Positions 9,683 to 56,195 of a stretch of 64,000 nt of DNA are shown piece by piece (the first letter of the stretch is position 1; every line of letters begins with the position of its first letter). The notes under the pieces were generated by a model, which searched no databases, was not told the origin of the DNA, and saw nothing but the letters and a program-made list of their open reading frames with translations. This DNA comes from Rhodobacter calidifons. GTDB taxonomy: Bacteria > Pseudomonadota > Alphaproteobacteria > Rhodobacterales > Rhodobacteraceae. The position numbers and the translations under genes were made by a program. Location of the stretch: contig NZ_JAANHS010000005.1 of NCBI RefSeq assembly GCF_011174775.1, forward strand, positions 186,001 through 250,000, given 5' to 3'.

Positions 9683-9948
9683 TGGCCCATGCCGCCGAAA
9701 TCGACCGGGGCTTCGGGGGCCTCCTCGATCTCGCCGCGCTTGGCGGCAAGCGCCTTTTCCAGGAACTCGCGGCCGCGCCGTTCGGCCAGACGGACACGGA
9801 CCGCGGTCATGTAGGCCTCCTGGAAGGTCGGAGAGGCCGCCATCAGAACCTTGGCGACCTTCTCGTAGAAGCGGTCATCGCCCAGTTCGGCTTCGGCGGC
9901 CAGCACGTCGTCGGCCAGCTGGTCGGCCATTTCCTGCAAGGTCGCCAT
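9679..9948 (-). CDS. Small conserved hypothetical protein
   Basis: 89 residues, no signal peptide or membrane helix. It is rich in Ala and Glu and looks all-helical, with a C-terminal acidic stretch and the tail DFGGMGH. It overlaps both neighbours by a few bases (start ATG within the stop of the alpha/beta hydrolase, stop within the start of the HD protein), which strongly supports it being a real, translationally coupled gene. I do not recognise its family. Confidence 0.75.
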   Translation of the reverse strand: MATLQEMADQLADDVLAAEAELGDDRFYEKVAKVLMAASPTFQEAYMTAVRVRLAERRGREFLEKALAAKRGEIEEAPEAPVDFGGMGH

Positions 9949-10607
9949 CAGCGCGTTGCCTCCGTCAACCTCCGGCGGACATAGTCCGAAACGGTCTGGA
10001 TCATCGGCTGCATATGCGCCTCTTCATCCTTGAAGAAATGGTCCGCCCCCTCGATCTCGGCATGGGTGATGGTGATGCCCTTCTGCTCGTGCAGCTTGCT
10101 GACCAGGGCCCGGGTGTCCTTGGGCGGCGCGACCTTGTCGGCGGTGCCGTTGATGATCAGGCCCGAGGAGGGGCAGGGGGCAAGGAAGGAGAAGTCATAC
10201 AGGTTCGCGGGCGGCGCCACCGAGACGAAGCCGGTGATCTCGGGCCGCCGCATCAGAAGCTGCATGCCGATCCAGGCGCCGAAGGAAAACCCCGCGACCC
10301 AGCACTGCTTGGAGTTCTGGTTCATCGATTGCAGATAGTCCAGCGCCGAGGCCGCATCCGACAATTCGCCGATGCCCTGGTCATATTCGCCCTGGCTGCG
10401 CCCCACGCCGCGGAAGTTGAAGCGCAGGACCGTGAAGCCCAGATTGTAGAAGGCATAGTGCAGATTGTAGACGACCTTGTTGTTCATCGTCCCGCCATAG
10501 GCCGGGTGCGGGTGCAGCACGATCGCGATCGGCGCGTCGCGGTCCTTCTGCGGATGGTAGCGGCCTTCCAGACGTCCGTCGGGACCGGCAAAGATTACCT
10601 CGGGCAT
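9948..10607 (-). CDS. Alpha/beta hydrolase (Tex30/YcjY-like dienelactone-type)
   Basis: 219-residue soluble hydrolase. The oxyanion region HPHPAYGGTMNN is near residue 32, FNFRGVGRSQG near residue 64, the nucleophile elbow GFSFGAW near residue 106, the acid in NGTADKVAPP near residue 153 and the catalytic His in GADHFF near residue 184, giving a complete Ser-Asp-His triad. This small family is common in proteobacteria but its substrate is unknown. It is the first gene of a coupled trio with the small unknown and the HD hydrolase and reads divergently from iscR. Confidence 0.85.
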   Translation of the reverse strand: MPEVIFAGPDGRLEGRYHPQKDRDAPIAIVLHPHPAYGGTMNNKVVYNLHYAFYNLGFTVLRFNFRGVGRSQGEYDQGIGELSDAASALDYLQSMNQNSKQCWVAGFSFGAWIGMQLLMRRPEITGFVSVAPPANLYDFSFLAPCPSSGLIINGTADKVAPPKDTRALVSKLHEQKGITITHAEIEGADHFFKDEEAHMQPMIQTVSDYVRRRLTEATR

Positions 10608-10639
10608 TGCACTTTTCTCATCCAGGAGCGTGCGATTTC

Positions 10640-10675
10640 TTGACGCTTTCGCTCGGCTAAACTAGAACCGTTCTA
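10640..10675 (+). promoter_or_regulatory. iscR-suf promoter with Irr-like (ICE) box
   Basis: TTGACG at 10640-10645 and TAGAAC at 10663-10668, 17 bases apart, make a plausible sigma-70 type promoter. The -10 element is half of TAGAAC-C-GTTCTA (10663-10675), a perfect palindrome that fits the TAGAA-N3-TTCTA core of the iron control element bound by Irr in alphaproteobacteria. A repressor on this site would block polymerase directly. The promoter lies 115 bases before iscR. Confidence 0.7.
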
Positions 10676-10789
10676 AAGCTGGCATGCGGCCTGGCGACCG
10701 GGGCCAACTTTTCGGGGCTTGACTGAGGTAATGTGCGCGGCGCGTGGCGTCAATGCGGTTGCATGGGCCGCGCGGGCCAGGAGGCGGGA

Positions 10790-11251
10790 ATGAAGCTATC
10801 GACCAAGGGGCGCTATGCGATGGTCGCCCTTGCAGACCTTGCCCTGGCGCAGGGCGACGATCTGGTGTCGCTGGCGGCGATTTCCAAGCGGCAGGACATC
10901 AGCCTGCCCTATCTGGAACAGCTGTTCGTCAAGCTGCGCCGGGCTGGGCTGGTCGAGGCCGTGCGCGGCCCCGGGGGCGGCTACAAGCTGGCGAAATCGC
11001 CCGACCAGATCCGTATCAGCGAGGTGATGCAGGCGGTCGAGGAGACGGTGGATGCGATGCACACCGGTGCGGGAGCCAGCGGCGGGCTTTCGGGCACACG
11101 GGCGCAATCGCTGACCAACCGGCTGTGGGAAAGCCTTTCGGCCAATGTCTATGTCTTTCTGCACCAGGTCCGGCTGTCGGATGTGGTGAATAACGATCTC
11201 ACCCCCTGCCCGGCGGTTCCCAGCCTGTTCCGCGTGGTGGACGAGGAATGA
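10790..11251 (+). CDS. iscR: Rrf2-family regulator IscR
   Basis: 153-residue Rrf2 protein: winged helix at residues 1-70 (MKLSTKGRYAMVALADLA, recognition region ISLPYLEQLFVKLR, wing GPGGGYKLAK). It heads the suf operon and is expected to sense Fe-S status. The three clustered cysteines of E. coli IscR (92, 98, 104) are absent; that region reads GAGASGGLSGT, and the only cysteine is Cys140 in LTPCPAV. From memory, Rhodobacter sphaeroides IscR also lacks the triad and is reported to bind a cluster with one cysteine. The ATG at 10790 has GGAGG upstream; an upstream in-frame start is not needed. Its stop overlaps the next start (ATGA). Confidence 0.9.
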   Translation: MKLSTKGRYAMVALADLALAQGDDLVSLAAISKRQDISLPYLEQLFVKLRRAGLVEAVRGPGGGYKLAKSPDQIRISEVMQAVEETVDAMHTGAGASGGLSGTRAQSLTNRLWESLSANVYVFLHQVRLSDVVNNDLTPCPAVPSLFRVVDEE

Positions 11252-12291
11252 GCCGCCTCTACCTGGACTGGAACGCGACCGCGCCGCTGCGGCCCGAGGC
11301 GAAGGCGGCGATGCTTGCGGCGATGGAGGTGGTGGGCAACCCGTCCTCGGTTCATGCCGAAGGACGGGCGGCCAGGGCGCTGGTGGAACGCGCGCGGGCG
11401 CAGGTGGCGGCGGCGCTTGGGGCTGACGGGGCGGATGTCGTCTTCACCAGCGGCGCGACCGAGGCGGCGGCGTTGGCCTGCGCCGGGCGCGGCCTGGTCT
11501 GCGCCGGTGTGGAGCATGATGCAGTGGCCGCCTGGTGCGAGGCGGGTCTGGCGGTGGACGGGCAGGGCCGGGTGACGGTTCCCGACCCGCCCCGGTCGGC
11601 GCTGCAACTGGCCAACAGCGAGACCGGCGTGATCCAGGACCTGCCCCAGGGCCTGGCGGTCAGCGACCTGACGCAGGCCTTCGGCAAGATTGCCTTTGCC
11701 TTCAACTGGCTGGGCTGCGACAGCGGGCTGGTATCGGCGCACAAGCTGGGCGGGCCGAAGGGCATCGGCGCGCTGGTGGTGCGGCAGGGGGTCGAGGTGC
11801 TGGCGCAGCTGAAGGGCGGCGGGCAGGAGATGGGCCGCCGCGCCGGGACCGAGAACCTGATCGGCATCGCAGGCTTCGGCGCCGCGGCCGAAGCCGCCGC
11901 CCGCGATCTGGCGAACGGCGTCTGGGAGGAGGTCGCCGAACTTAGAAATATTCTAGAAATGCAGTTGTCGGCCGCGGAAAATGAGACTATTTGCGTCGGG
12001 AATGGTTCGCCGCGCCTGCCGAACACGCTTTGCCTGATCGCGCCCGGCTGGAAGGGCGAGACCCAGGTGATGGCGATGGATCTGGCGGGGTTCGCGATTT
12101 CCGCCGGTTCGGCCTGTTCCAGCGGGAAGGTGCGGACCAGCCGTGTCCTGACCGCGATGGGCCTTGATCCGGCCCTTGCGGGCCAGGCGATCCGGGTCTC
12201 GATCGGCCCGGGGACGAGACGAGACGAGGTGCTGCGGTTCGGGGAAGCCTGGACCAAGGCCTATGCCAAGGCCCGCGCGCGGGCTGCCTGA
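11248..12291 (+). CDS. Cysteine desulfurase (IscS/NifS class)
   Basis: 347-residue class V aminotransferase that takes sulfur from cysteine for Fe-S assembly. N-terminal [14 protein letters not shown] is characteristic of group I desulfurases; the PLP lysine is in [15 protein letters not shown] near residue 165, and the active-site cysteine is in [11 protein letters not shown] near residue 290. It differs from the SufS-type enzyme at the end of the same operon, so the operon carries both classes. It is translationally coupled to iscR. A short AT-rich patch at 11941-12000 inside the gene carries an Irr-box-like palindrome. Confidence 0.92.
11943..11955. promoter_or_regulatory. Second Irr/ICE-like palindrome, inside the desulfurase gene
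   Basis: TAGAA-ATA-TTCTA, with flanking T and G, has the same TAGAA-N3-TTCTA core as the box on the iscR promoter. It lies in a local AT-rich patch in an otherwise GC-rich coding region, 350 bases before sufB. It may mark an internal regulated promoter or a roadblock site; chance occurrence is possible because it also encodes part of LRNILEMQ. Confidence 0.4.
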
Positions 12292-20173: not shown

Positions 20174-21067
20174 ATGCCGTCTCGCCGTCTTCTTCTGCTT
20201 GCACCGCTGCCGGCTGCCCTGCCGCTTCCGGCGCTGGCCGAGGCGCGGCTGAAGGTCGTGACCACCTTCACGGTGATCGCCGACATGGCGCGGAACGTCG
20301 CCGGGGACGGGGTCGAGGTCGTCTCGATCACCAAGCCGGGGGCCGAGATCCACGGCTATGAACCGACCCCGCGCGACATCGTCGGCGCGGCGGATGCCGA
20401 TCTCGTGCTCTGGAACGGGCTGGGGCTCGAACGCTGGTTCGAGCAGTTCCTGAGCAATCTCGCCGGGGTCCCTGCCGCCACGCTGACCGATGGCATCACG
20501 CCGATCTCGATCACCGGAGGGGATTACGACGGCCGCCCGAATCCGCATGCCTGGATGAGCATCGACAATGCGCTGATCTATGTGGATAACATCGCGAAGG
20601 CGCTGTCCGGTGTCGATCCGGCCCATGCCGCGACCTATGCCGCCAATGCCGCGGCCTACAAGGCGCAGCTCGCCGCCGCCCTCGACCCGCTGAAGGCGCA
20701 GATCGCGGCGCTGCCGGAGGATCGTCGCTGGCTGGTCACCTGCGAAGGCGCCTTCAGCTACCTGGCCCGCGACCTGGGCCTGAAGGAGCTTTATCTCTGG
20801 CCGATCAACGCCGACCAGCAGGGCACGCCCCGCCAGGTCCGCGCCGTGATCGACGGGGTGCGTGAACATGGCATTCCGGCGGTGTTCTGCGAAAGCACCG
20901 TGCCCTCGGACCCGGCCGAACAGGTCGCGCGCGAGACGGGTGCGGCCTTCGGCGGCGTGCTTTACGTGGACAGCCTGTCCGCGGCCGACGGGCCGGTGCC
21001 GACCTATCTCGACCTCCTGACCGTGACCACCGAAACCATCGTGCGGGGCCTCGCGTCCGCGAATTGA
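20174..21067 (+). CDS. sitA: Manganese/iron ABC transporter substrate-binding protein
   Basis: 297-residue periplasmic cluster A-I binding protein. It has a signal peptide ([21 protein letters not shown]). Expected ligands are visible: His in [13 protein letters not shown] near residue 55, His in RPNPHAWMS near 122, Glu in [11 protein letters not shown] near 190 and Asp in LYVDSLS near 265. Glu rather than His as third ligand favours the Mn/Fe (SitA/MntC) group over ZnuA. The ATG at 20174 follows CGGAGG; a longer ORF running back through the tRNA is not the gene. First gene of sitABCD. Confidence 0.92.
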
Positions 21068-21074
21068 GGATGAC

Positions 21075-21926
21075 ATGCGCGACGACCGGGCTTGCGAAGG
21101 CATTTTCGCCGAAGGGCTTACCGTCACCTACCGGAACGGCCTGACCGCGCTGACCGATGCCAGCTTCGCGGTCCCGCAAGGCACGATCACGGCGCTGGTC
21201 GGCGTCAACGGGGCGGGAAAGTCCACGCTGTTCAAGGCGATCATGGGCTTCGTGCCGCTGGCGCGCGGCACGATCCGTCTTCTGGGCCTGCCTGTGCGCG
21301 AGGCGCTGCGGCAGAACCTTGTCGCCTATGTTCCACAGGCGGAAGAGGTGGACTGGTCCTTCCCGATCCTGGTCGAGGATGTGGTGATGATGGGCCGCTA
21401 TGGCCACATGGGCTTCCTGCGCCGCCCCTCGGCCGCCGACCGGGCAAAGGTGGATCAGGCGCTTGCCCGTGTCGGCCTGTCGGACCTGCGCCACCGCCAG
21501 ATCGGCGAATTGTCCGGCGGTCAGAAGAAGCGCGTCTTTCTCGCCCGCGCGCTGGCGCAGGAGGGCCGGATCATCCTTCTGGACGAGCCCTTCACCGGCG
21601 TTGACGTGAAGACCGAGGAACAGATCATCGCCCTCATGCGCGACCTGCGCGACGCGGGCCATGTCATGCTGGTCTCGACCCACAACCTGGGCTCGGTCCC
21701 CGATTTCTGCGACCGGACCGTGCTCGTCAAGGGCACCGTCCTCGCCCATGGCCCGACCGAAACCACCTTCACCCGCGAGAACCTCGAACGGGCCTTCGGC
21801 GGCGTCCTGCGCCATTTCACCCTGGGCGGCAGCGACCTGCACGACGACGACGATGCCCGCGAGATCTCGATCCTCACCGACGACGAACGCCCCTTCGTGC
21901 AATACGGTCGCAAGGACCAGACATGA
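21075..21926 (+). CDS. sitB: Manganese/iron ABC transporter ATP-binding protein
   Basis: 283-residue ATPase that powers the Sit importer. Walker [15 protein letters not shown] near residue 42, Q-loop [13 protein letters not shown] (typical of metal-type ABC importers), signature [15 protein letters not shown] near 145, Walker [13 protein letters not shown] near 166 and the H-loop STHNLG. An acidic, histidine-bearing tail ([13 protein letters not shown]) follows. It starts 7 bases after sitA. A 144-base spacer with a dispersed repeat separates it from sitC. Confidence 0.95.
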
Positions 21927-21931
21927 CCATG

Positions 21932-21967
21932 CCATTTGCCCATGTCGCAAATACTCCCGCCGGAGGC
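21932..21967 (-). repeat. CTCCGGCGGGAG-TATTT repeat, copy 1 (reverse orientation)
   Basis: Read on the minus strand: GCCTCCGGCGGGAGTATTT, two to three variable bases, then ACATGGGCAAATGG. Copies occur at 49179-49214 and 58215-58247 in the forward orientation. This copy interrupts the sit operon between sitB and sitC. Confidence 0.75.
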
Positions 21968-22070
21968 CGCCCGAGCCGGTTGCGCGCGCCCCGCGCGCAG
22001 AGGCGAGACAAGAGGCTTGCGCCGCAAGGCGCGCAATCTGCCAACCGCCCCGACCCGTGCGCAGGTAGCC

Positions 22071-22904
22071 ATGCTTGAGCCCTTCGCCTACAGCTACATG
22101 ACCAATGCGATGGGCGTCTCGGCCCTGGTCGGCGGGGTCTGCGGGCTGCTGTCGGCCTACCTGATGCTGAAAGGCTGGTCGCTGATCGGCGATGCGCTGT
22201 CCCATTCCGTGGTGCCCGGAGTCGCGGGGGCCTATATCCTGGGCCTGCCCTTCGCGCTTGGCGCCTTCCTGTCCGGAGGCCTTGCCGCCGGTGCCATGCT
22301 GTTCCTGTCCAGCCGAAGCGGGCTGAAGACGGACACGGTGATCGGCCTCATCTTCACCTCGTTCTTCGGCCTTGGCCTGTTCCTGATCTCGGTCTTTCCC
22401 ACCTCGGTCTCGGTCCAGACCATCATCATGGGCAATGTGCTGGCGATCTCGCCCGGCGACAGGGTGCAGCTTCTGCTGATCGGCGGCATTTCGGCCCTGG
22501 TCCTGCTGGTGCTGTGGAAGGACCTCATGGTCACCTTCTTCGACGAGGCGCATGCCCGCGCCATCGGGCTTCGGCCCGGGGTCCTGAAACTGGTGTTCTT
22601 CACGCTTCTCGCGGCCTCGACCGTGGCCGCCATGCAGACGGTCGGGGCCTTCCTGGTCGTGGCGATGGTCGTGACGCCCGGCGCCACCGCCTATCTTCTG
22701 ACCGACCGTTTCCCCCGGCTTCTCGCGCTGGCAGCCGGGATCGGCGCGTCCAGCGGCTTTGCGGGGGCCTACCTGTCCTATTTCCTGGACGGAGCGACCG
22801 GAGGCGTGATCGTCCTGTTGCAGACCGCGCTTTTCGCGCTTGCCTTCCTTTTTGCCCCGAAGCACGGGCTGCTGGCCGCGAAGGCCCGGGCGAGGGCGGC
22901 ATGA
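22071..22904 (+). CDS. sitC: Manganese/iron ABC transporter permease (SitC)
   Basis: 277-residue cluster-9 (ABC-3 family) permease with seven to nine hydrophobic helices. The family block GWSLIGDALSHSVVPGVAGA is near residue 38, followed by GLKTDTVIGLIFTSFFGLGL and the C-terminal GAFLVVAMVVTPGATAYLL. I place the start at ATG 22071 (MLEPFAYSYMTNA), the family-typical N-terminus; an in-frame upstream ATG at 21936 would add residues encoded by a dispersed repeat. The stop overlaps the sitD start. Confidence 0.92.
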   Translation: MLEPFAYSYMTNAMGVSALVGGVCGLLSAYLMLKGWSLIGDALSHSVVPGVAGAYILGLPFALGAFLSGGLAAGAMLFLSSRSGLKTDTVIGLIFTSFFGLGLFLISVFPTSVSVQTIIMGNVLAISPGDRVQLLLIGGISALVLLVLWKDLMVTFFDEAHARAIGLRPGVLKLVFFTLLAASTVAAMQTVGAFLVVAMVVTPGATAYLLTDRFPRLLALAAGIGASSGFAGAYLSYFLDGATGGVIVLLQTALFALAFLFAPKHGLLAAKARARAA

Positions 22905-23722
22905 TCGAGTTCCTCCTCCAGCCGTTCCAGTTCCCGTTCATGCGGAACGCCTTCTGGATCGCGCTGATCGTGGCCCCGCCCACCGCGCTTCTGTCCTGCT
23001 TCCTGGTCCTGAAGGGCTGGGCGCTGATGGGCGATGCGGTCAGCCACGCGGTCCTGCCGGGGATCGTGCTGGCCTGGCTGGCCGGGCTGCCGCTCCTCAT
23101 CGGAGCCTTCGCCGCCGGGCTCGGCGCGGCGCTTCTGACCGGCTATCTGGCCGACAACAGCCGGGTCAAGCGCGACACCGCGATGGGCGTGGTCTTTTCG
23201 GGCATGTTCGCGGCCGGCATCGTGCTTTACACCGCCTTTCCGAGCGAATGGCACCTGGACCACATCCTCTTCGGCAACATGCTGGGCGTGGGGGCCGAGG
23301 ACCTGCGGACCTCGGCGCTGATCGCCGCGCCGGTCACGCTGATCCTTGCCCTCAAGTGGCGCGACCTGATGCTGCATGCCTTCGATCCCGTGCAGGCCCG
23401 GGTCTCGGGCCTGCCGACGGGGCTTTTGCACTACGGACTTCTGGCGATCCTGGCGCTGACCATCGTCGCCACGCTGACCTCGGTCGGGCTGATCCTGGCC
23501 ATCGGCCTGCTGATCGCGCCCGGTGCCATCGCCTTTCTCCTTACCCGCAGCTTCGGCGCCATGCTGGTTGCCGCCACCCTGGTCTGCCTTCTGGCGATGA
23601 TCGGCGGCGTCTGGGCCAGCTTTCACCTGAATTCCGCCCCGGCCCCGACGGTGATCCTGATCCTGACCGGCATGTTTGGTGCCGCCTTTCTGCACCGGAC
23701 GATCCGCGGCCGCACCGCCTGA
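22901..23722 (+). CDS. sitD: Manganese/iron ABC transporter permease (SitD)
   Basis: 273-residue second permease, homologous to SitC: MIEFLLQPFQFPFMRNAFW, then GWALMGDAVSHAVLPGIVLA near residue 38, RVKRDTAMGVVFSGMFAAGI near 86, and LLIAPGAIAFLLT near 200. The two permeases probably form a heterodimer with SitB. ATG at 22901 overlaps the sitC stop (ATGA). Last gene of sitABCD. Confidence 0.92.
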   Translation: MIEFLLQPFQFPFMRNAFWIALIVAPPTALLSCFLVLKGWALMGDAVSHAVLPGIVLAWLAGLPLLIGAFAAGLGAALLTGYLADNSRVKRDTAMGVVFSGMFAAGIVLYTAFPSEWHLDHILFGNMLGVGAEDLRTSALIAAPVTLILALKWRDLMLHAFDPVQARVSGLPTGLLHYGLLAILALTIVATLTSVGLILAIGLLIAPGAIAFLLTRSFGAMLVAATLVCLLAMIGGVWASFHLNSAPAPTVILILTGMFGAAFLHRTIRGRTA

Positions 23723-23764: not shown

Positions 23765-24565
23765 ATGACCGGACCGACCCCACTGACCCGGGCGACCGAC
23801 GCCCAGCTTCAGCGGCTTGCCGCGCTGCCAGCGGGTCCCGACCGGCTGGCCGCGCAGCTGCGGCAGCTGGCGAAATGGCGCGCGATCGTCCTGGCGAACA
23901 CGCTGCTTCAGCGCAGCGGCGGCCGGGTCGCCCACGGACCCTTCGCCGGCATGCACTACGCCGTCCCCGCTGCCGAGGGCGGCCGCGCCCCGCGTCTGTT
24001 GGGTGTCTACGAGGCCAGCCTGCATCCCGTGATCGAGACGGTGATCTCCCGTGGCTATCCCCAGGTGCTCGATATCGGCTGCGCCGAAGGTTACTATGCC
24101 GTGGGCCTGGCCCGGCGCATGCCGTCCAGCCTGATCCATGCCCGCGACACCAACCCCGCCGCGCGCGCCTTGTGCACCGAGCTTGCCCGCGCGAACGGAG
24201 TCGAGGACCGGCTGCGGATCGCGGGCGCGGTCGGCCATGCCGATCTTGCGCTTTGTGCCGAGGCGCCGACCTTCATCCTGTGCGACATCGAAGGGGCCGA
24301 GGCCGAGCTTCTGGACCCCGCCCGCGCCCCGGCGCTGGTCCGCGCCGACCTCCTGGTCGAGGTGCATGAAGGGATGCGCCCGGGCCTGCTGGCCCTGCTG
24401 ACCGACCGTTTCGCGCCCTCGCACCGGATCACCCGCATCGACCGCAGTCTGCGCCCCGACCTCTTGCCCGACTGGGCCGAGATGCTGTCCGACCTCGACC
24501 GCCTGCTGATGCTGTGGGAATGGCGCGCCACGCCGACGCCCTGGCTCTGGATGGAAAGCCGCTGA
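23765..24565 (+). CDS. Class I SAM-dependent methyltransferase
   Basis: 266-residue soluble protein. The central Rossmann motif VLDIGCAEGYYAVGLARR (near residue 100) is SAM-binding motif I; ARDTNPAA follows as motif II, and CDIEGAEAELLDP near 180 resembles the post-motif acidic block of FkbM-like enzymes. The N-terminal 80 residues are helical and carry HGPFAGMHY. It is the first of four tightly packed genes (its stop overlaps the glycosyltransferase start), so it probably modifies the same product. The acceptor is not known. Confidence 0.8.
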   Translation: MTGPTPLTRATDAQLQRLAALPAGPDRLAAQLRQLAKWRAIVLANTLLQRSGGRVAHGPFAGMHYAVPAAEGGRAPRLLGVYEASLHPVIETVISRGYPQVLDIGCAEGYYAVGLARRMPSSLIHARDTNPAARALCTELARANGVEDRLRIAGAVGHADLALCAEAPTFILCDIEGAEAELLDPARAPALVRADLLVEVHEGMRPGLLALLTDRFAPSHRITRIDRSLRPDLLPDWAEMLSDLDRLLMLWEWRATPTPWLWMESR

Positions 24566-26262
24566 TGCCCGACCCGACCCCTGCCGCCAATGCCGCGATC
24601 TGGTTCACGTCCGACGGCTACGACCCGGCGCGCAGGGGCATCAACGGCCGCCGCGTCGCCGGCGAAAGCTTCCTGCGGGGCTTCTTCACCCATGGCCGGG
24701 TAGAAGAATTCGTCTCGGTCGCCCATACGCAGGGCGACCACGCGGCCTTCGCCGAAATGGCCCGTGCCGCAGGCGTGACCCGGCCCTTGCGGGCGGTCCG
24801 GCTGGATGCGCCGGCCGCGATGGCGCCGGTCGAGGTGCTGCATTATCCCGCCCCGATCAGCGCCGCCGAGTGCTGGCGCCGGTCGGTGCACGGGGCGGCG
24901 GCCTGGGCGCTGTGCGGCGTGACCCATACCACGGCCACGAAGAACGTCATGCAGGCTCTGTTCGACCTGCGCGCGGCGCCGCAGATGCCCTGGGACGCGG
25001 TGATCTGCACCTCGGACGCGGTCCAGGCCTCGCTGCGCCGGTTGATGGAACTGGCCGAGGCCCATCTGGCCCACCGCTTTCCGGGCGCGGTCCTGCCGGC
25101 GCGGCCGCTGTTGCCGGTCATTCCGCTGGGTATCGCCTGCGATGACTTCCAGCCGGACCCGGCTCTCGGCCAGGAGCTGCGCGCGCGCATCGGAGCCGCG
25201 CCCGGCGATGTGGTCGCCGTCACCATCGCGCGGCTGACCCCGGACGAGAAGTTCGACCCGCTGCCCCTGTTCCTGGCCATGGAACAGGCCGCGGGCGAGG
25301 TCCGCGCCTTCGGCGGCGGCAAGCTGCATCTGGTGTTCTGCGGCCAGTTCCGAGAAGAGCTCTGGGAAGCAATCTATGCCAGGGCCGCGGTCCGGCTGAT
25401 GCCCTCCTGCGGCTATCACCTCATGGACGGCGGCAACCCGCAGGACCGCAAGGCCACGCTGTCGGGCGGCGACATCTTCGTCTTTCCGATCGACAACCTT
25501 CAGGAAACCTTCGGTCTGGCACCGGTCGAGGCGATGGCGGCGGGTCTGCCGGTGATCGTGACGGACTGGGACGGGATGAAGGATACGGTGACGCCCGAGG
25601 TGGGCATCCGGGTGCCAAGCGAACTGCCCCGCGCGGGGCTGTCCGGTTACATCACCCAGCGCTTCCTGGGCGGGACGGATGCCTATGTGCAGTATCTCAG
25701 CCAGGTCTCGGCCCTGACGCCCGTGGATGTCGGCGCCTTCGCCCGGGCGCTGGTGACGCTGGCGATGGATCCCGACCTGCGCGCGCGGATGGGGGCCATG
25801 GGGCAGGCCCGGGCGCGGGCGCTGTATGACTGGCGCGCGGTGATCCCGCAGTATCAGGCGCTCTGGGCGGAACAGCGGGCGATGCTGGCCCACGCCCGGG
25901 CAAGGGGCGGGCCCGGGCTTGCGCCCTGCGCGCCCGCGCAGGTGCCGGTCGGTCCGGCAGTGGAAGAGATGTTCGCCGCCTATCCGACGCGCTTCGCCCC
26001 GCCAGAGCGTCGTCTGGCCGCCCGGCCGCCCGAGGATCGGCCGCCCCCGGCCGAGATGTTCGCCCTGCGCAACTACGCGCTGCGCCGCCGCCTGATCGAC
26101 GACCCGGCCCGGATCGAGGCGGTGCGCGCCGCCTATGCCGCGGCAGGCCCCGGCGGCGCGACCGAGGCCGAGATCGGCGCCGCCCTGCGCCTGCCGCCCT
26201 CGGTCGTCGGCCGCGCGGCGCTCTGGCTGCTGAAATACGACTACCTGGTGGAGGTGTCATGA
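24565..26262 (+). CDS. Glycosyltransferase, GT-B type (family 4-like)
   Basis: 565 residues. The N-terminal half includes FTSDGYDPARRGINGRRVAG and a Rossmann-like region; the C-terminal half has the GT4 donor-site block VFPIDNLQETFGLAPVEAMA near residue 310 (the E-x7-E element), then GLPVIVTDWDGMKDTV. Residues beyond about 440 are an extra arginine/proline-rich and helical tail (AEIGAALRLPPSVVGRAALW) that looks like a small winged-helix-like module. It begins within the methyltransferase stop codon and its end overlaps the SDR start. Donor and acceptor are unknown. Confidence 0.82.
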   Translation: MPDPTPAANAAIWFTSDGYDPARRGINGRRVAGESFLRGFFTHGRVEEFVSVAHTQGDHAAFAEMARAAGVTRPLRAVRLDAPAAMAPVEVLHYPAPISAAECWRRSVHGAAAWALCGVTHTTATKNVMQALFDLRAAPQMPWDAVICTSDAVQASLRRLMELAEAHLAHRFPGAVLPARPLLPVIPLGIACDDFQPDPALGQELRARIGAAPGDVVAVTIARLTPDEKFDPLPLFLAMEQAAGEVRAFGGGKLHLVFCGQFREELWEAIYARAAVRLMPSCGYHLMDGGNPQDRKATLSGGDIFVFPIDNLQETFGLAPVEAMAAGLPVIVTDWDGMKDTVTPEVGIRVPSELPRAGLSGYITQRFLGGTDAYVQYLSQVSALTPVDVGAFARALVTLAMDPDLRARMGAMGQARARALYDWRAVIPQYQALWAEQRAMLAHARARGGPGLAPCAPAQVPVGPAVEEMFAAYPTRFAPPERRLAARPPEDRPPPAEMFALRNYALRRRLIDDPARIEAVRAAYAAAGPGGATEAEIGAALRLPPSVVGRAALWLLKYDYLVEVS

Positions 26263-26984
26263 CCGACCGTTCGATCCTGATCACCGGCGCGGGCGCCGGC
26301 ATCGGCCGCGCCACCGCGCGCGCCTTCCTGGCGGCGGGCTGGGAGGTCAGCCTCCTGGGCCGGCGCCGCGCGGCGCTGGAGGAAACCGCAGGCGATGCCC
26401 CCGCGCGTATTCTGGTGGCGGATGTGGGCGACCCGGCCGAGGTCGAGGCCGCCTTTGCCCGGCTGCCCCGGCTGGACGTGCTGTTCAACAACGCCGGCAT
26501 CTCGGCCCCCGCCGCCCCCATCGACGAGATCCCGGTCGAGAAATGGCTCGAGGTCAGCCGCACCAACATCACCGGCATGTTCCTCTGCGCCCGCGCGGCC
26601 TTCGGACTGATGCGCCGCCAGACCCCGCGCGGCGGACGGATCATCAACAACGGCTCGATTTCCGCCCATGTGCCGCGGCCCGGCTCGGTGCCCTATACCA
26701 TGTCGAAACATGCCGTGACCGGCCTGACCCGCACCCTGGCCCTGGACGGCCGCGCCTTCGACATCGCCTGCGCGCAGATCGACATCGGCAATGCGCTGAC
26801 CGACATGGCCGCGAAGTTCCAGACCGCCGTGCCCCAAGCCGACGGCAGCATCCGGGCCGAACCGGTGATGGATGTGGACCATGTGGCCGCAATGGTCCTG
26901 CACATGGCCAGCCTGCCGCTGGAGGTGAACACCCCCTTCGTCACGATCATGGCGCGCGACATGCCCTATATCGGGCGCGGCTAG
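26259..26984 (+). CDS. Short-chain dehydrogenase/reductase
   Basis: 241-residue classical SDR. Cofactor motif ITGAGAGIGRATARA at residue 7, LFNNAGIS near 78, Ser of the triad in NNGSISAH near 130 and the YxxxK motif as YTMSKHA near 146. Arg residues after the second strand (LLGRRRAA) favour NADP. Its ATG overlaps the glycosyltransferase stop. Context suggests it makes or modifies a sugar or polyol in the same pathway. Confidence 0.85.
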   Translation: MTDRSILITGAGAGIGRATARAFLAAGWEVSLLGRRRAALEETAGDAPARILVADVGDPAEVEAAFARLPRLDVLFNNAGISAPAAPIDEIPVEKWLEVSRTNITGMFLCARAAFGLMRRQTPRGGRIINNGSISAHVPRPGSVPYTMSKHAVTGLTRTLALDGRAFDIACAQIDIGNALTDMAAKFQTAVPQADGSIRAEPVMDVDHVAAMVLHMASLPLEVNTPFVTIMARDMPYIGRG

Positions 26985-27168
26985 CGGCAGGCGGCGCCGG
27001 GCGGCGCCTCGGGCCCTTGCCCTGCCGGCGCGGCGCGGGCAAGGTTGCGCCGAAGGCCGGCGGGCGGCCGAGGCCGTCATTCCGGCGTCATCGGCCCCTG
27101 GCATCCCGCACCGGTCACCGCGACCGCAACCCCCACGCCGCGCCCGCTGCGCAAACAGGACCCAGACC

Positions 27169-28095
27169 ATGCTCCGCCCCTCTGCCTTCACCGCCCCCGG
27201 CCGCTTCTGGCGCGGGAACCTGCACACCCATTCCACGCGCTCCGACGGTGTGCTCGCGCCCGAAGAGGTCTGCCGCCGCTACCGCGACGAGGGCTATGAT
27301 TTCCTGGCGCTGACCGACCATTTCATCGGCGCCTACGGCTATCCGATCGTCGATACCGTGCCCTTCCGCACCAACAGCTTCACCACGATCCTCGGGGCCG
27401 AACTGCATTCGGGTGCCATGGCCAACGGCGAGCTGTGGCATATCCTGGCCGTGGGCCTGCCGCCGGACTTCGCGCCCTCGGACAGCCCCGGCTTCCTGCC
27501 GAAACCGGGGCAGGAAAGCGGGGCCGAGATCGCCGCCCGCGCCGTCGCTGCCGGGGCCTTCGTCGCCATCGCGCATCCGCAATGGTCGGGCCTGACCCTT
27601 GCCGATGCGCGGTCGATCACGGCGGCCCATGCGGTCGAGATCTACAACCACGGCTGCGCCGCCGGCTGCGACCGGCCCGACGGCGCGGCGATTGCCGACC
27701 TGCTGTTGACCGAAGGCCGGCGCCTGAGCCTGATCGCCACCGATGACGCGCATTTCTCGGAACCCGACCATTTCGGCGGCTGGGTGATGGTCAAGGCCGA
27801 GGCGAACGAGCCCGAGGCGCTGCTGGCCGCGTTGAAGCGAGGGGATTTCTATTCCTCGCAGGGGCCGGAGTTGCGCGATGTGGCCGTGGATGGCGACAAG
27901 GTGGTGGTCGAATGTTCGGCCGCCGTCTCGGTGGTGGCGCTGGGGCATGGCACCGGCGCCAAGGCGGTGCACGGGGCGTCGATGACCCGGGCGGAAGTGC
28001 CGCTGCAGCGGCTGAACGACAGCCCATGGCTGCGCGTCGCGGTGATCGATGCGGCCGGAAAACGCGCCTGGTCGAACCCGATCTGGCTGCGATAG
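27169..28095 (+). CDS. PHP-domain metallohydrolase (CehA/McbA-like)
   Basis: 308-residue PHP-superfamily phosphoesterase. Metal ligands appear in order: NLHTHSTRSDG at residue 17, LTDHFIG near 48, AELHSG near 76, AHPQWSG near 140 and TDDAHFSEPDH near 205, so all four PHP motifs are present. The C-terminal 90 residues form a beta-rich domain. It follows the SDR after a 184-base gap that holds nothing recognisable, and may be the last member of the methyltransferase-glycosyltransferase-SDR set. Substrate unknown. Confidence 0.82.
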   Translation: MLRPSAFTAPGRFWRGNLHTHSTRSDGVLAPEEVCRRYRDEGYDFLALTDHFIGAYGYPIVDTVPFRTNSFTTILGAELHSGAMANGELWHILAVGLPPDFAPSDSPGFLPKPGQESGAEIAARAVAAGAFVAIAHPQWSGLTLADARSITAAHAVEIYNHGCAAGCDRPDGAAIADLLLTEGRRLSLIATDDAHFSEPDHFGGWVMVKAEANEPEALLAALKRGDFYSSQGPELRDVAVDGDKVVVECSAAVSVVALGHGTGAKAVHGASMTRAEVPLQRLNDSPWLRVAVIDAAGKRAWSNPIWLR

Positions 28096-28333: not shown

Positions 28334-30019
28334 TCAGGTGCCGAGGATCGCCGGCAGACGCAGCCCGTGGTCCTTCGCGCATTGGATCGCGGTTTCGTAG
28401 CCCGCATCCGCATGCCGCCAGACGCCGCTGGCCGGATCGTTCCACAGGACGCGCTCCAGCCGGCGCGCGGCCTCGGGCGTCCCGTCCGCGACGATGACCA
28501 CGCCCGCGTGCTGGCTGAACCCCATGCCCACCCCGCCCCCGTGATGCAGGCTGACCCAGGTCGCGCCGCTGGCGGTGTTGACCAGCGCATTCAGCAGCGG
28601 CCAGTCCGACACCGCGTCCGACCCGTCCTTCATCGCCTCGGTCTCGCGGTTGGGTGAGGCGACGGACCCCGAGTCCAGGTGATCCCGCCCGATCACGATG
28701 GGGGCCTTCAGCTCTCCGTTTGCCACCATCTGATTGAACATCAACCCGGCGCGGTGCCGGTCGCCCAGCCCGATCCAGCAGATCCGCGCGGGCAGGCCCT
28801 GAAACGCGATCCGCTCGCCCGCCATGTCCAGCCAGCGGTGCAGATGTGCATTGTCGGGGAACAGCCGCTTCATCGCCGCGTCGGTCTTGCGGATATCCTC
28901 CGAATCGCCCGACAGGGCGCACCAGCGGAAGGGGCCGATCCCCTTGCAGAAGAGAGGGCGGATATAGGCGGGGACGAAACCGGGGAAGGCGAAGGCGTTC
29001 TCGAACCCCTCCTCCTTCGCCACCTGCCGGATGTTGTTGCCATAGTCGAGCGTAGGGACGCCTGCGTTCCAGAAGCCGACCATCGCCTCGACATGGGCGC
29101 GCATCGAAGCTCGCGCGGCCACCTCGACCGCCTTGGGGTCCGTCTCCTGCCGCGCGCGCCAGTCGGCCACGGTCCAGCCCGCAGGGCAATAGCCATGCAG
29201 CGGGTCATGCGCTGACGTCTGGTCGGTGACGATATCGGGGCGCGGCCCGCCAGCCTGCATCCGGCGCAGAAGTTCGGGAAAGACTTCGGCGGCATTGCCC
29301 AGCAGGCCCACGGATTTCGCCTCGCCCTTCGCGGTCCAGTCCGCGATCATCGCCAGCGCCTCGTCCAGCGTATGGGCCTTGGCATCGAGATAGCGGGTGC
29401 GGATACGGAAATCGATCCGCGTCTCGTCCACCTCGACCGCAAGACAACATGCCCCCGCCATCACCGCAGCCAGCGGCTGCGCCCCGCCCATGCCGCCCAG
29501 GCCCCCGGTCAGGATCCAGCGGCCCGAGAGGTTCCCGCTGTAATGCTGCCGCCCGGCCTCGGCAAAGGTTTCATACGTCCCCTGCACGATCCCTTGCGTC
29601 CCGATGTAGATCCAGGATCCGGCGGTCATCTGGCCGTACATCATCAGGCCCTTGCGGTCCAACTCGTTGAAATGCGCCCAGGTCGCCCAGTGCGGCACGA
29701 GGTTGGAGTTGGCGATCAGCACGCGGGGCGCATCCGCATGGGTGCGCACGATGGCAACCGGCCTGCCCGACTGCACCACCAGCGTCTCGTCGCCCTCCAG
29801 ATCCCGCAGGCTTGCCACGATGCGGTCGAAGTCGTCCCAGGTCCGCGCCGCCCGGCCGATGCCGCCATAGACCACCAGTTCGTGCGGGTTCTCGGCCACG
29901 TCGGGGTGCAGGTTGTTCATCAGCATCCGCATCGCCGCTTCGGTCTGCCAGCTTTTGCAGGTCCTTTCGGGGCCGGTCGGCGGGTAGATGTCGCGCAGGT
30001 TGTGGCGGGGGTTCGACAT
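28334..30019 (-). CDS. hutU: Urocanate hydratase
   Basis: 561-residue NAD-dependent enzyme of histidine breakdown (urocanate to imidazolonepropionate). Motifs: [19 protein letters not shown] near residue 25, [12 protein letters not shown] near 50, the NAD-binding [14 protein letters not shown] near 170, and the active-site cysteine region [11 protein letters not shown]. The ATG at 30019 follows GAAGGAG. It is the last gene of hutI-hutH-hutU and ends against a cloverleaf-like hairpin cluster. Confidence 0.96.
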
Positions 30020-30044
30020 TGTGGGCTCCTTCGCTGGTGGGGAC

Positions 30045-30096
30045 CCCCGGGGCGCTTCGCCCCCGGACCCCCGAGGATATTTGTGGACAGATGAAA
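30045..30096. repeat. GGATATTTG-GGACAGATGAA repeat, copy 1
   Basis: A G/C-run hairpin followed by CCCGGACCCCCGAGGATATT and TGTGGACAGATGAAA. It shares this layout with 39645-39694 and 42230-42283. It lies between hutH and hutU. Confidence 0.75.
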
Positions 30097-31629
30097 TCAG
30101 GCGAGGTCGGGCATCGGGATGGCGGCGGCCCGGCTGAGCGCGCCTTCGGCGACAAGCGCGGCCGCGCGGGCTAGGTCGGGGGCCAGGTAGCGGTCATCGG
30201 CCAGGGCAGGGACCTTGTCGCGAAGCGCGCGGACCGCCGCCTGGAGGGGCGCGGAGGTGCGCAGCGGGGCGCGGAATTCGATCCCTTGCGCCGCGCAGAG
30301 CGCCTCGACCCCGAGGATCACGTTCAGGTTCGCGACCATCCGCCCCAGCCGCCGCGCGCCATGGGCGGCCATGCTGACGTGGTCCTCCTGATTGGCGGAG
30401 GTGGGAGTCGAGTCGATAACCGTGGGATGGGCGAGGTGCTTGTTCTCGCTCATCAGCGCGGCAGTCGTCACTTCGGCGATCATCAGGCCGGAGTTGAGGC
30501 CGGGCTTCGGCGTCAGGAAGGCGGGCAGGTCGAAGCTGAGCGTCGGATCGACCATCAGCGCCACCCGGCGCTGCGCGATGGCGCCGATCTCGGCCACCGC
30601 CATCGCGATCATGTCGGCAGCAAAACCAACGGGTTCGGCGTGGAAGTTGCCACCGCTGACGATCTGCCCATCGGACAGCACCAGCGGATTGTCGGTGGCG
30701 GCATTCGCCTCGATCTCCAGCGTCCGGGCGGCCATGCGCAGCACGTCCATTGCCGCGCCGGTGACCTGCGGCTGGCAGCGGATGCAGTAGGGGTCCTGCA
30801 CCCGGCTGTCGCCCTCGCGGTGGCTTTCCCGGATCTCCGACCCGGCCAGCAGCGCGCGCATTGCCGCTGCTGTGGCGATCTGGCCCGGCTGGCCGCGCAA
30901 GCTGTGGATTTCCGGCTCCAGCGGCGCGGTCGAGCCCATGATCGCGTCGGTGGACAGCGCCGAGATCACCAGCGCCTCCTGCGCCGCGCGCCAGGCCTGG
31001 AACAGGCCGGCCAGCGCGTAAGCGGTCGAGAACTGGGTGCCGTTGATCAGCGCCAGCCCCTCCTTCGCCCCAAGAGTGATCGGTGAAAGCCCATTCATCG
31101 CAAGGGCTTCGGCGCCGGATTTCACGTCGCCATCGACCATCGCCTCGCCATGGCCGATCATCACGGCGGTCAAATGGGCCAGGGGGGCGAGGTCTCCGCT
31201 GGCGCCGACCGAGCCCTGATCGGGGATCACCGGGGTCACGCCTCGGGCCAGCATGGCTTCAATCAGCTCCACGATGACCGGGCGAACCCCGGATGCCCCG
31301 CGGCCAAGCGAGAGGAGTTTCAGCACCATCATCAGCCGCGCCACATCCCGGGGCATGGGCGCGCCCACCCCGCAGCAATGGCTGAGGATCAGATTTTTCT
31401 GAAGCTTGGTCGTATCTTCCGGGGCGATCTTGATGCTTGCCAGCTTGCCGAAGCCGGTGTTCACCCCATAGACGGCTGCCGTCCCCCCGGCTGCCGCCGC
31501 AATGTGACCGGCGGCGCGTTCGATCCCGTTGCGGGCACTGTCATGCAGGCGGGCAGGCAAGCCTTGTCTGTATATACGCGCCAGCTGCGACAGGCTGACC
31601 TGGCCCGGGATCAGGATTTCAGGCGTCAA
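30097..31629 (-). CDS. hutH: Histidine ammonia-lyase
   Basis: 510-residue MIO enzyme that deaminates histidine to urocanate. The MIO-forming Ala-Ser-Gly is in [14 protein letters not shown] near residue 140; YGVNTGFG near 50, [12 protein letters not shown] near 325 and NQEDHVSM near 410 are conserved. The start is TTG at 31629, with GGAGG six bases upstream; this gives the usual length, while longer in-frame starts extend into hutI. It overlaps the hutI end by 11 bases, implying coupled translation. Confidence 0.95.
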
Positions 31630-32827
31630 GCTGGCCTCCGTATATACGTTTGTGCAGGGGGGTTGCGCCGATCCGATAGCTGAGTTCCGCAGGATGGTGG
31701 GCGTCCCAGATGCAGAGGTCGGCCCGCTGGCGCGGCGCGATCCTGCCCCGGTCGGACAGACCCAGGGCGCTTGCGGCATGCAGCGTCGTCCCGGCAAGGG
31801 CCTCCAGCGGCGTCAGACGGAAGAGGGTGCAGGCCATGTTCATCGCCAGCGTCAGCGAGGCCATCGGCGAGGACCCGGGGTTCAGGTCGGTCGCCACCGC
31901 CATCGGCACGCCGGCCGCGCGCAGGGCGCCGATGGGCGGCGTCCGGGTCTCGCGCAAAGTGTAGAAGGCGCCGGGCAGGATCACCGCCACGGTTCCGGCC
32001 TGCGCCATCGCCGCGATGCCTTCGGGCGAGAGATATTCCAGATGATCCGCCGAAAGCGCCCCGTGACCTGCCGCGAAGGCCGCGCCGCCCCGGTCGCTCA
32101 GCTGCTCGGCATGCAGCTTGACCGGAAGGCCAAGCGCGCGGGCCTCGGCAAACAGCGGCGCAAGTTCATCGACGGAAAAGGCGATGGTTTCGCAGAAGGC
32201 ATCGACCGCATCGACCAGCCCCTCGGCATGCGCGGCGCGCAGCGAGGGCAGGGCGACCTCGGTGATATAAGCCTTTGCGTTGTCTTTGAATTCCGGCGGA
32301 ACGGCATGGGCCGCCAGATGAGAGGTCCTCACCGTCACCGCGCGGTGCCTGTCGATCTGCCGCGCGACGCGCAGCATCTTCAACTCGTCCCCGACGGTCA
32401 TCCCATAGCCGGATTTGACCTCGACCGTGGTGGCGCCAGAGGCCGTCAGCTGGTCGATGCGGGCAAGCGCGCCGGACAGGAGTGTGTCCTCGGAGGCCGC
32501 CCGGGTGGCGGTCACGGTCGCCATGATCCCGCCGCCGGCGCGGGCAATCGCCTCATAGCTGGCGCCGTTCAGGCGCAGCTCGAATTCTTCGGCGCGGTGT
32601 CCCGCGAAAACCGCGTGGGTGTGGCAGTCGATCAGGCCGGGGGTGACAAGCCTGCCCCCGCAGTCGAGGTGGGGCAGTCCCCGGTGGTCTGCGGGCAGAT
32701 CTGCCATCGGGCCGACCCAGGCGATCCGGTCCGCCTCGATCACCACGGCGCCGTCCCGGATCAGGCCGTAATCGCCCGATCCAGCCGCGGGGCTCATCGT
32801 CGCAAGGGTGGCATGGGTCAGGAGCAT
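31619..32827 (-). CDS. hutI: Imidazolonepropionase
   Basis: 402-residue amidohydrolase that opens imidazolonepropionate to formiminoglutamate. Metal motif [11 protein letters not shown] is near residue 68, EVKSGYGMT near 138, then KLHAEQLS near 240, and the aspartate in [10 protein letters not shown] near 310. First gene of the leftward hut unit; it starts 32 bases from a palindromic operator shared with hutF. Confidence 0.96.
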
Positions 32828-44730: not shown

Positions 44731-46292
44731 CCGACCTCTCCGACCTGCCCGGCGAGACCTGCGAACCCGCCCGCGCCCGCCGCTCTGGCGGTCGGCAGGC
44801 CCGCGTGGCCCTGCGTGCGGCACCTCTGGCCGACGACGTGAAACCCGTCCGCGCGGGCCTGCCCGGCGGCCAGTATAAGCCGCTGACCGAGGCCGGGATC
44901 CGGCAGATCCACTCAGCCGCGCTGGACGCGCTGGAGCAGATCGGCCTCTCGCAGGCCCCGCCGTCGGGTGTGAAACTCCTGACCGAGGCCGGCGCGATCC
45001 TTGGCGATGACGGCCGCATCCGCTTTCCCCGCGCGCTGGTCGAGGACATGCTGGCCATCGCCGCGCGCAACATCACGCTTTACGCCCGCGACCCGAAGCA
45101 CGACCTGCACCTGACCGGGACCAACGTGCATTACGGCACGGCGGGCGCGGCGGTGCATATCGTCGATCCGGTCACGCTGGAGTATCGCGACAGCACCGCG
45201 CAGGACCTTTATGACGCGGCGCGGCTGGTCGACAATCTGGACAACATCCACTTCTACCAGCGCACCATGGTCTGCCGCGACGTGGCGGACAACAGGGAGA
45301 TGGACCTCAACACCCTCTACGGCAGCCTGGCCGGGACGGTGAAACATGTCGGGACCTCGTTTTCCGACCCCAGCCACGTCGCCGACTGCTTCGAGCTGAT
45401 CCACATGGTCGCAGGTGGCGAGGAGAAGTGGCTGGAGCGGCCTTTCGTCAGCAATTCCAACTGCTTCGTCGTCCCGCCGATGAAATTCGCCGAGGAATCC
45501 TGCATCACCATGGAGGACTGCATCCGCCGCGGCATGCCGATGCTGCTGCTGTCGGCCGGGCAGGCGGGGGCCACGGCGCCCGCGCCGATCGCGCTGGCCA
45601 TCGTGCAGGCGGTGGCCGAATGTCTGGCCGGGGTGGTCTATGTCAACGCGATCAAACCTGGCGCTCCGGCGATCTTCGGGACCTGGCCCTTTGTTTCCGA
45701 TCTCAGAACGGGCGCCATGTCCGGCGGGTCGGCGGAACAGGCGTTGCTGACGGCGGGTTGCGCGCAGATGCACCGGTTCTACGACCTGCCGGGCGGGGCG
45801 GCCTCGGGGATCAGCGACTCGAAACTTCCCGACATGCAGGCGGGCTGGGAGCAGGGGATCACCAACGCGCTGGCGGGCCTTGCGGGGCTGAACATGTGCT
45901 ACGAGGCGGTGGGGATGCATGCCTCGCTTCTGGGGTTCTGCCTTGAATCGCTGGTGCTGGGGGATGACCTGCTGGGCCAGACCATGCGGCTGGTGCGCGG
46001 CATCGACGTGACGCCGGATTCCACCAGCATCGAGGCGATGAAAAAGGTCTGCCTCGGCGGGCCCGGGCATTACCTCGGGTCGGATCAGACGCTGAAGCTG
46101 ATGCAGACCGAATACATCTATCCCAAGGTCGGCAACCGCATGTCGCCCAAGGAATGGAACGAGGCGGGCAAGCCCCTGCTTCTGGACACCGCGATTGCCC
46201 GGAAGAACGCAATCCTGGCCAAGGCGGGCTGCCGGGTGGACCCGGAGATCGACGCGGCGATCCGAAAGCGGTTCAACATCTACTTCAAATAA
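44727..46292 (+). CDS. Trimethylamine methyltransferase family (MttB-like) protein, non-pyrrolysine
   Basis: 521 residues. After a basic N-terminal stretch, residues 55-500 match the MttB TIM-barrel pattern: PLTEAGIRQIHSAALDALEQ, FPRALVEDMLAIAARNITLY, VHYGTAGAAVHIVD, GGSAEQALLTAGCAQMHRFY, and the C-terminal DPEIDAAIRKRFN. There is no in-frame UAG, so it is of the non-pyrrolysine kind; characterised members demethylate quaternary amines such as glycine betaine to a corrinoid protein. No corrinoid-protein gene is in view. Coupled to the second FAD/GcvT gene. Substrate is inferred only as a methylated amine. Confidence 0.85.
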   Translation: MTDLSDLPGETCEPARARRSGGRQARVALRAAPLADDVKPVRAGLPGGQYKPLTEAGIRQIHSAALDALEQIGLSQAPPSGVKLLTEAGAILGDDGRIRFPRALVEDMLAIAARNITLYARDPKHDLHLTGTNVHYGTAGAAVHIVDPVTLEYRDSTAQDLYDAARLVDNLDNIHFYQRTMVCRDVADNREMDLNTLYGSLAGTVKHVGTSFSDPSHVADCFELIHMVAGGEEKWLERPFVSNSNCFVVPPMKFAEESCITMEDCIRRGMPMLLLSAGQAGATAPAPIALAIVQAVAECLAGVVYVNAIKPGAPAIFGTWPFVSDLRTGAMSGGSAEQALLTAGCAQMHRFYDLPGGAASGISDSKLPDMQAGWEQGITNALAGLAGLNMCYEAVGMHASLLGFCLESLVLGDDLLGQTMRLVRGIDVTPDSTSIEAMKKVCLGGPGHYLGSDQTLKLMQTEYIYPKVGNRMSPKEWNEAGKPLLLDTAIARKNAILAKAGCRVDPEIDAAIRKRFNIYFK

Positions 46293-56083: not shown

Positions 56084-56195
56084 GCGGCTGTTTCGACCGG
56101 GGCGGGGTCGGGGTCAAGTCAAAAGCGGGCAAGACTTGCCCTTCCGGCGCGCATGGGCAAGGCTGGACCGGCAGGTGGGAAAGAGGCGGCCTCTG

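Follow-up and report, generated by a model that had tools for sequence, protein, structure and literature searches.

A GT4-type glycosyltransferase with a predicted C-terminal winged helix, coupled to methyltransferase and oxidoreductase genes in Rhodobacter calidifons, may modify exported surface proteins

The window analysed here is a 64,000-nucleotide stretch of Rhodobacter calidifons contig NZ_JAANHS010000005.1, and the locus of interest within it comprises four genes on the forward strand. These encode an FkbM-like S-adenosylmethionine methyltransferase (MT; 23765..24565, 266 aa), a GT4/GT-B glycosyltransferase with a predicted C-terminal winged helix (GT; 24565..26262, 565 aa), a short-chain dehydrogenase/reductase (SDR) family NAD(P)-dependent oxidoreductase (26259..26984, 241 aa) and a CehA/McbA-family metallohydrolase (PHP; 27169..28095, 308 aa). 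We assumed that GT starts at the ATG at 24565, the longest open reading frame (ORF) opening at a GTG at 24514. Given this ATG, the MT stop and the GT start have one base (24565) in common, the overlap between GT and SDR is four bases, and PHP follows after a 184 bp spacer (26985..27168), as a preliminary description of the locus, which had noted overlaps of one to four bases followed by PHP, led us to expect. The spacer lacks the ArsR-type gene usual in relatives, a feature that this description had not noted. That description had also suggested that the four genes could act together. Our comparison of related loci indicates that they are not one unit, with MT, GT and SDR coupled and PHP a conserved but probably separate neighbour.

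GT scored above the cut-offs of the Pfam profiles PF13692 (46.2 versus 27) and PF00534 (45.3 versus 26.4), and contains a pair of glutamates, E314-x7-E322, both invariant in the alignment of relatives, which we take to be the E-x7-E motif of GT4 enzymes. Modelling of the window protein and 52 relatives (mean predicted local distance difference test (pLDDT) 94.1) yielded a predicted GT-B fold over approximately residues 6-442 that resembles GT4 enzymes, and profile, fold and motif together place GT in this family. The nearest solved structures among the 50 fold matches listed were BshA, PimB', HepE and GlgM, including 2jjm (Z 29.1, root-mean-square deviation (rmsd) 3.3, 334 aligned residues) and PimB' (3oka; Foldseek E 2e-16), while the 50 matches listed from a viral structure library were mostly plain glycosyltransferases. 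GT41 was absent among the 50 fold matches listed per search, which is not an exclusion by fold; by profile, searches of Pfam and NCBIfam at E ≤ 0.01 returned GT4-type matches only, so GT does not fall within GT41 (HMW1C-like). At the same threshold, Pfam gave no match to the tetratricopeptide repeat (TPR) that binds flagellin in FlmG, which places GT outside that class, and the name DUF1975 was absent among the GT matches, though this family may have been renamed in Pfam.

Residues 446-565 of GT (25900..26259) form a 120-residue extension that ends in a three-helix-plus-strand block at approximately residues 514-563, modelled as helices at 514-527, 534-541 and 545-557 and a strand at 561-563, the arrangement of a winged helix. 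The preliminary description had singled out an extension of this length with a helix-turn-helix (HTH)-like end and had proposed structure prediction as a check; the predicted structure bears out both its extent and its fold. Modelled alone, the last 120 residues reached a pLDDT of 86.9, and Foldseek returned nothing for this model at E ≤ 0.001. A second fold comparison (VIA) matched the extension to many winged-helix proteins (Z 5.7-7.5, rmsd mostly 1.3-4), some of which we presume to be such and others of which are so titled; the scores are tied at approximately 6-7.5, and values of this size may mean a common arrangement only. They included Fur (Z 7.5, rmsd 2.5, 68 aligned residues) and the N-terminal part of MccB (Z 7.4, rmsd 2.8, 71 aligned residues), which we take to be a recognition element of the type used for winged-helix peptide recognition in enzymes of ribosomally synthesised and post-translationally modified peptides (RiPPs). 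The top row of this comparison (Z 9.3) was disregarded, its rmsd being 14. The 53 C-termini scanned, that of the window protein among them, gave scattered weak HTH matches in Pfam (HTH_IclR in 6/53, HTH_24 in three and MarR_2 in three), the best being one HTH_68 match at E 1.9e-4, and the C-terminus of the window protein had no Pfam match at E ≤ 1. The winged-helix block is kept across the whole GT alignment, with R550 and W554 conserved at 90% or more.

MT weakly resembles FkbM methyltransferases. Its profile scores lie below the cut-offs, with a best Pfam score of 23 bits and a TIGR01444 (FkbM) score of 25.1 bits against a threshold of 37.7, and its intact DIGCAEG motif is one that we presume to belong to this type of enzyme. 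We examined the distribution of these genes in 148 genomes of relatives, counting matches at E < 1e-40 for GT and E < 1e-30 for MT as strong. GT was present in 42 of them, made up of 31 of the 32 genomes of the genus, six from other genera of the family and five others of the class; its closest relative, from Tabrizicola flagellatus, is 88% identical in a search that may omit very near records, and the source of the window is accordingly a Tabrizicola-like member of the Rhodobacteraceae/Paracoccaceae. Strong MT matches were found in 17 genomes, all of which carry GT and, by coordinates compared by eye, have the two genes adjoining; weak matches (E ~1e-14) occurred in two further genomes lacking a strong GT, and 18 of the 31 GT-bearing genomes of the genus have no MT.

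SDR and PHP were counted in the same 148 genomes at E ≤ 1e-50 and E ≤ 1e-20, respectively. SDR was found in 89 genomes, 52 of them lacking a strong GT, and PHP in 46, of which 12 lack it. The preliminary description had named lack of co-occurrence in other genomes as the result that would speak against a joint function; this is the case for SDR and PHP, which are found in many genomes lacking a strong GT, and not for MT, which strictly accompanies GT. PHP passes NF038032 (CehA/McbA; 94.3 versus 80 bits), and what we recognise as the YxxxK motif of SDR and the HxH motif of PHP are intact.

The spacing of the genes was compared across 28 named loci (L031-L058), some of which are cut by contig ends and for which gaps were extrapolated from alignment ends. 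MT was present in 13 of these, SDR beside GT in 24 and PHP in 23. The MT-GT spacing was -19 to +14 bp in the 13 loci having MT and the GT-SDR spacing -7 to +17 bp in the 24 with SDR at that position. Because this tight spacing recurs in the loci that have these genes, the packing of both pairs exceeds chance. The SDR-PHP gap, in turn, measured only 35 bp in L052 but 486-752 bp in the other 22 of the 23 loci, and these 22 hold an antisense ArsR-type gene within the gap. A representative of this gene from L032 passed NF033788 (79.7 versus 55 bits) and was BigR-like below the cut-off. At other places in the R. calidifons genome there are six ArsR-like matches, with a highest identity of 56%. The order SDR-ArsR-PHP is maintained with no adjacent GT in L121, which also has hutU, and in L122, a 3.4-kb contig; in L141, SDR adjoins PHP and hutU with no GT on the fetched contig. 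At E ≤ 1e-6 this ArsR gene was not detected in 13 further PHP loci (L130-L142, L141 included). An inverted repeat, CTTGCC-N16/17-GGCAAGG, lies upstream of PHP at 27016-27044, and similar elements occupy the same position in nine aligned relatives. The exact pattern occurs at only two other sites in the genome, one of them at window position 56135 beside an ORF that we presume to encode an alanine racemase.

Related loci, those of more distant GT relatives included, were sampled by exact peptide patterns, and the counts apply to that sample; ORF calls were mechanical and missed some neighbours, such as CHAT in L075 and L093. In the 48 loci outside the SDR-linked clade (drawn from L050-L103), we scored an ORF with four or more motifs as an RTX-repeat ORF and a distance within 1.5 kb of GT as near. 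RTX-repeat ORFs were near GT in 22 of the 48 loci, and per ORF they made up 22/143 of those near GT versus 2/318 at more than 3 kb, uncorrected for kinship among the loci. A type I secretion ABC gene lay upstream in 15 of the 22 RTX loci, with HlyD between the ABC and RTX genes in 14, and a representative ABC protein scored 637 bits against the TIGR01842 cut-off of 510. A further 13 of the 48 loci (among L071-L098, mostly Phenylobacterium) had rows of a ShlB-type gene, a two-partner secretion (TPS) exoprotein, CHAT, GT and a small protein, CHAT being called in 11. The terminal small protein has 154 aa and no Pfam match. One contig labelled Myxococcota (L070) carries a GT that is nested in the Caulobacteraceae copies and has the same neighbours, reflecting mis-binning or transfer. 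Of 14 plasmid records with a GT relative, five were examined. One Azospirillum copy and those from Desulfolutivibrio, Rhodovastum and Niveispirillum have RTX proteins and another GT4 nearby, which the second Azospirillum copy does not. On the acetobacterial Rhodovastum plasmid the order is RTX-MT-GT-GT4, with the MT homologue (44% identity) directly upstream of GT.

A wider scan of the family at E ≤ 1e-60 identified GT in 32 of 394 genomes, and 30 loci were examined. MT adjoins GT in 12 of these, and in L111 by the MT scan. Genome G077 encodes, consecutively and on one strand, an RTX-Hint protein, an MT-containing ORF and GT; in no other of the 30 loci is the module immediately adjoined by RTX. 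At L110, the ORF between the RTX-Hint gene and GT (9702-11324) is 540 aa long; MT forms its C-terminal half, and its N-terminal ~270 residues have no Pfam match. In 12 of the 30 loci GT adjoins genes for a TPR protein and a protein of 261 aa, accompanied by an FkbM methyltransferase in 11 and by MotB, FlgE and FlgK in 10, families that were named from one or two representatives. L161 (5439-14631) and 11 similar Rhodobacteraceae loci show the order ThuA - GFO/IDH/MocA - GT - 261 aa - TPR - FkbM - MotB - FlgE, with incomplete gene calls, and Pfam does not recognise the 261-aa protein. When MT was tested for homology to the FkbM protein of these flagellar-type loci, little was shared beyond a short DIEG.E stretch. 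The main text of a study of Rhodobacterales flagellar clusters (PMC11974857, PMC12363192) does not contain the words glycosyltransferase or glycosylation.

Genomic context tracks clade in a GT tree of 55 rows. The flagellar-type copies (11 rows, support 100/100) are sister to the MT-linked copies (27 rows, some of them orphans, support 100/100), the two joining at 100/98, and the RTX-linked G077 copy is placed among the MT-linked ones. A group of 13 SDR-linked rows has moderate support (91/84).

Genes of one GT family are thus accompanied by three export routes and two types of methyltransferase, and what these contexts most simply share would be an exported protein acceptor, glycosylated ahead of export as in HMW1C, the serine-rich-repeat adhesins and FlmG. 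On balance we think it somewhat more likely than not, by analogy and from the neighbourhoods of relatives, that GT is a cytoplasmic GT4 protein glycosyltransferase acting on a surface protein that is exported, and that MT tailors the product. The soluble enzyme would draw on a nucleotide sugar to attach one or a few sugar units to the protein before its export, and the C-terminal winged helix would hold the acceptor. The leading candidates for the acceptor are a surface protein of RTX type and a flagellar protein. RTX proteins are encoded on three or more contigs of the R. calidifons genome. MT may then methylate the sugar or the acceptor. SDR, probably co-translated with GT in this lineage, may make or adjust the sugar but looks like a later recruit, and PHP would be a separate neighbour, usually set apart by the ArsR-type gene. 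Cytoplasmic glycosylation of exported proteins is itself already known. A more far-reaching proposal, which we advance only tentatively and regard as rather unlikely, is that GT typifies a new class of cytoplasmic protein glycosyltransferases, GT4 enzymes in which a C-terminal winged helix reads the acceptor, as the winged-helix domain of RiPP enzymes does, serving type I/RTX, two-partner secretion and flagellar export with a methyltransferase that caps the sugar. If the exported-protein reading is true, a broad uncharacterised family of alphaproteobacterial glycosyltransferases would gain a function, that of glycosylating surface proteins of the RTX, filamentous and flagellar kinds, and the winged helix would become a testable, portable acceptor-recognition domain. 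Annotating the four genes as one biosynthetic cluster would be unwise.

Several observations weigh against an exported protein acceptor. The closest folds (BshA, PimB' and HepE) act, as we presume in part, mostly on small molecules, lipids and polysaccharides. Among the 25 SDR-clade loci none has an RTX gene within 1.5 kb of GT, and because of this the link of that clade to exported proteins rests on homology; the RTX-linked G077 GT is 44% identical to the window protein and the others mostly 34-42%. Of the 48 loci outside the clade, 13 have neither RTX nor TPS genes, two of these having MT and at least two lying by housekeeping genes. The RTX- and TPS-linked copies belong mostly to two Caulobacteraceae clades, and independent links must therefore be far fewer than 35. 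With RTX repeats in 114 of the 148 relatives, genome-level co-occurrence is uninformative. Finally, Azospirillum relatives of GT sit among nucleotide-sugar and O-antigen-type genes (dTDP-rhamnose, GDP-mannose).

The Azospirillum neighbourhoods and the nearest folds, GlgM among them, are what would be expected if GT made a small glycoside, a glycolipid or a lipopolysaccharide or exopolysaccharide unit that MT and SDR then tailored, the links to exported proteins being incidental. The coupling of SDR to GT in this lineage and the ThuA- and GFO/IDH/MocA-type genes upstream of GT in flagellar-type loci point the same way, and we regard this as a possible though less probable explanation: no polysaccharide gene was present among the six scanned neighbours in the window, the neighbours in the SDR clade not having been family-scanned, and three distinct exported-protein contexts recur among relatives. 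The preliminary description had proposed that the genes build and process a methylated glycan or a glycosylated metabolite; methylation combined with glycosylation stays plausible, whereas the neighbourhoods of relatives argue, indirectly, for an exported protein as the acceptor over a small metabolite. We consider it improbable that GT and MT build one metabolite that SDR oxidises or reduces and PHP hydrolyses. The MT-GT-SDR coupling and the GT-SDR-PHP order in 23 of the 28 loci would fit such a pathway, some of the other loci being cut by contig ends, but we rejected it, as PHP and SDR are common in genomes with no strong GT, the antisense gene lies between SDR and PHP in all but one of 23 loci, and the SDR-ArsR-PHP order persists with no adjacent GT in L121 and L122. 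Least probable of all is that GT is a bifunctional enzyme and regulator whose winged helix binds DNA, as the weak HTH matches in some members and the many transcription factors among the fold matches might suggest; the domain terminates a large glycosyltransferase and is retained across different operon types, and the window member has no such Pfam match.

Upstream of the module lie sitABCD-like metal ABC transporter genes (20180..23722, forward strand), and downstream, on the reverse strand and convergent, hutU, hutH and an ORF that we presume to be hutI-like (28334..32827). Among the relatives' loci compared, sitABCD adjoins the module only in Tabrizicola-type loci and is missing upstream of it in L050-L053, L056 and L058; with adjacency so limited, a link of the module to metal transport was rejected. 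We likewise rejected the idea that the window genes lie in a known polysaccharide cluster, the six scanned neighbours being the four sit genes, hutU and hutH. A scan for promoters and terminators gave no signal above chance. Rfam, applied to the window and the loci of four relatives, found tRNAs and one PYLIS_3 match (the pyrrolysine insertion element of mttB); this match (45810-45909, forward strand, 42.2 bits versus a cut-off of 38) sits within an uninterrupted 521-aa ORF (44727-46292, forward strand), presumably of the non-pyrrolysine MttB type.

Neither a GT4 enzyme with a winged helix and these partners, nor such a GT glycosylating RTX proteins in Alphaproteobacteria, was found among the papers listed in searches of the open-licence literature, some listings covering 12 of 57, 10 of 165 and 8 of 29 papers. 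We compared GT with the systems that it most resembles. GtfA is a GT4 enzyme. Like GT as we envisage it, GtfA/GtfB modify a protein, the serine-rich-repeat adhesin, before its export; in the available excerpt their interaction is mediated by DUF1975 and an accessory Sec system accompanies them (PMC6973325), whereas the additional domain of GT is a predicted winged helix and no accessory Sec system was seen beside it. HMW1C-like N-glycosyltransferases are described in the portion consulted of PMC3983070 as adjacent to TPS genes or as orphans with no obvious target, which parallels the GT-B enzymes found here beside a two-partner-secreted exoprotein or alone. However, HMW1C (of HMW1ABC and EtpABC) is, in that same portion, a GT41 enzyme with an N-terminal AAD domain, whereas GT is a GT4 enzyme with a C-terminal winged helix, and its relatives additionally occur beside RTX and flagellar genes. 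On the side of the acceptor, the excerpted part of a review of RTX proteins states that SwmA appears glycosylated and that oscillin is highly glycosylated (PMC3034196). PHP joins the CehA/McbA metallohydrolases by its NF038032 score, which does not imply carbamate hydrolase activity; CehA is larger than the 308-aa PHP, with residue 495 among the histidines important to it (PMC8292978, in excerpt). The likeness to FlmG, the flagellin O-glycosyltransferase of Caulobacter, is that of an alphaproteobacterial, cytoplasmic enzyme combining a substrate-binding domain with a GT-B fold. In FlmG the binding domain is an N-terminal TPR (PMC7591256, in excerpt), whereas the candidate in GT is the C-terminal winged helix; in the flagellar-type loci, TPR proteins are encoded by neighbouring genes of their own.

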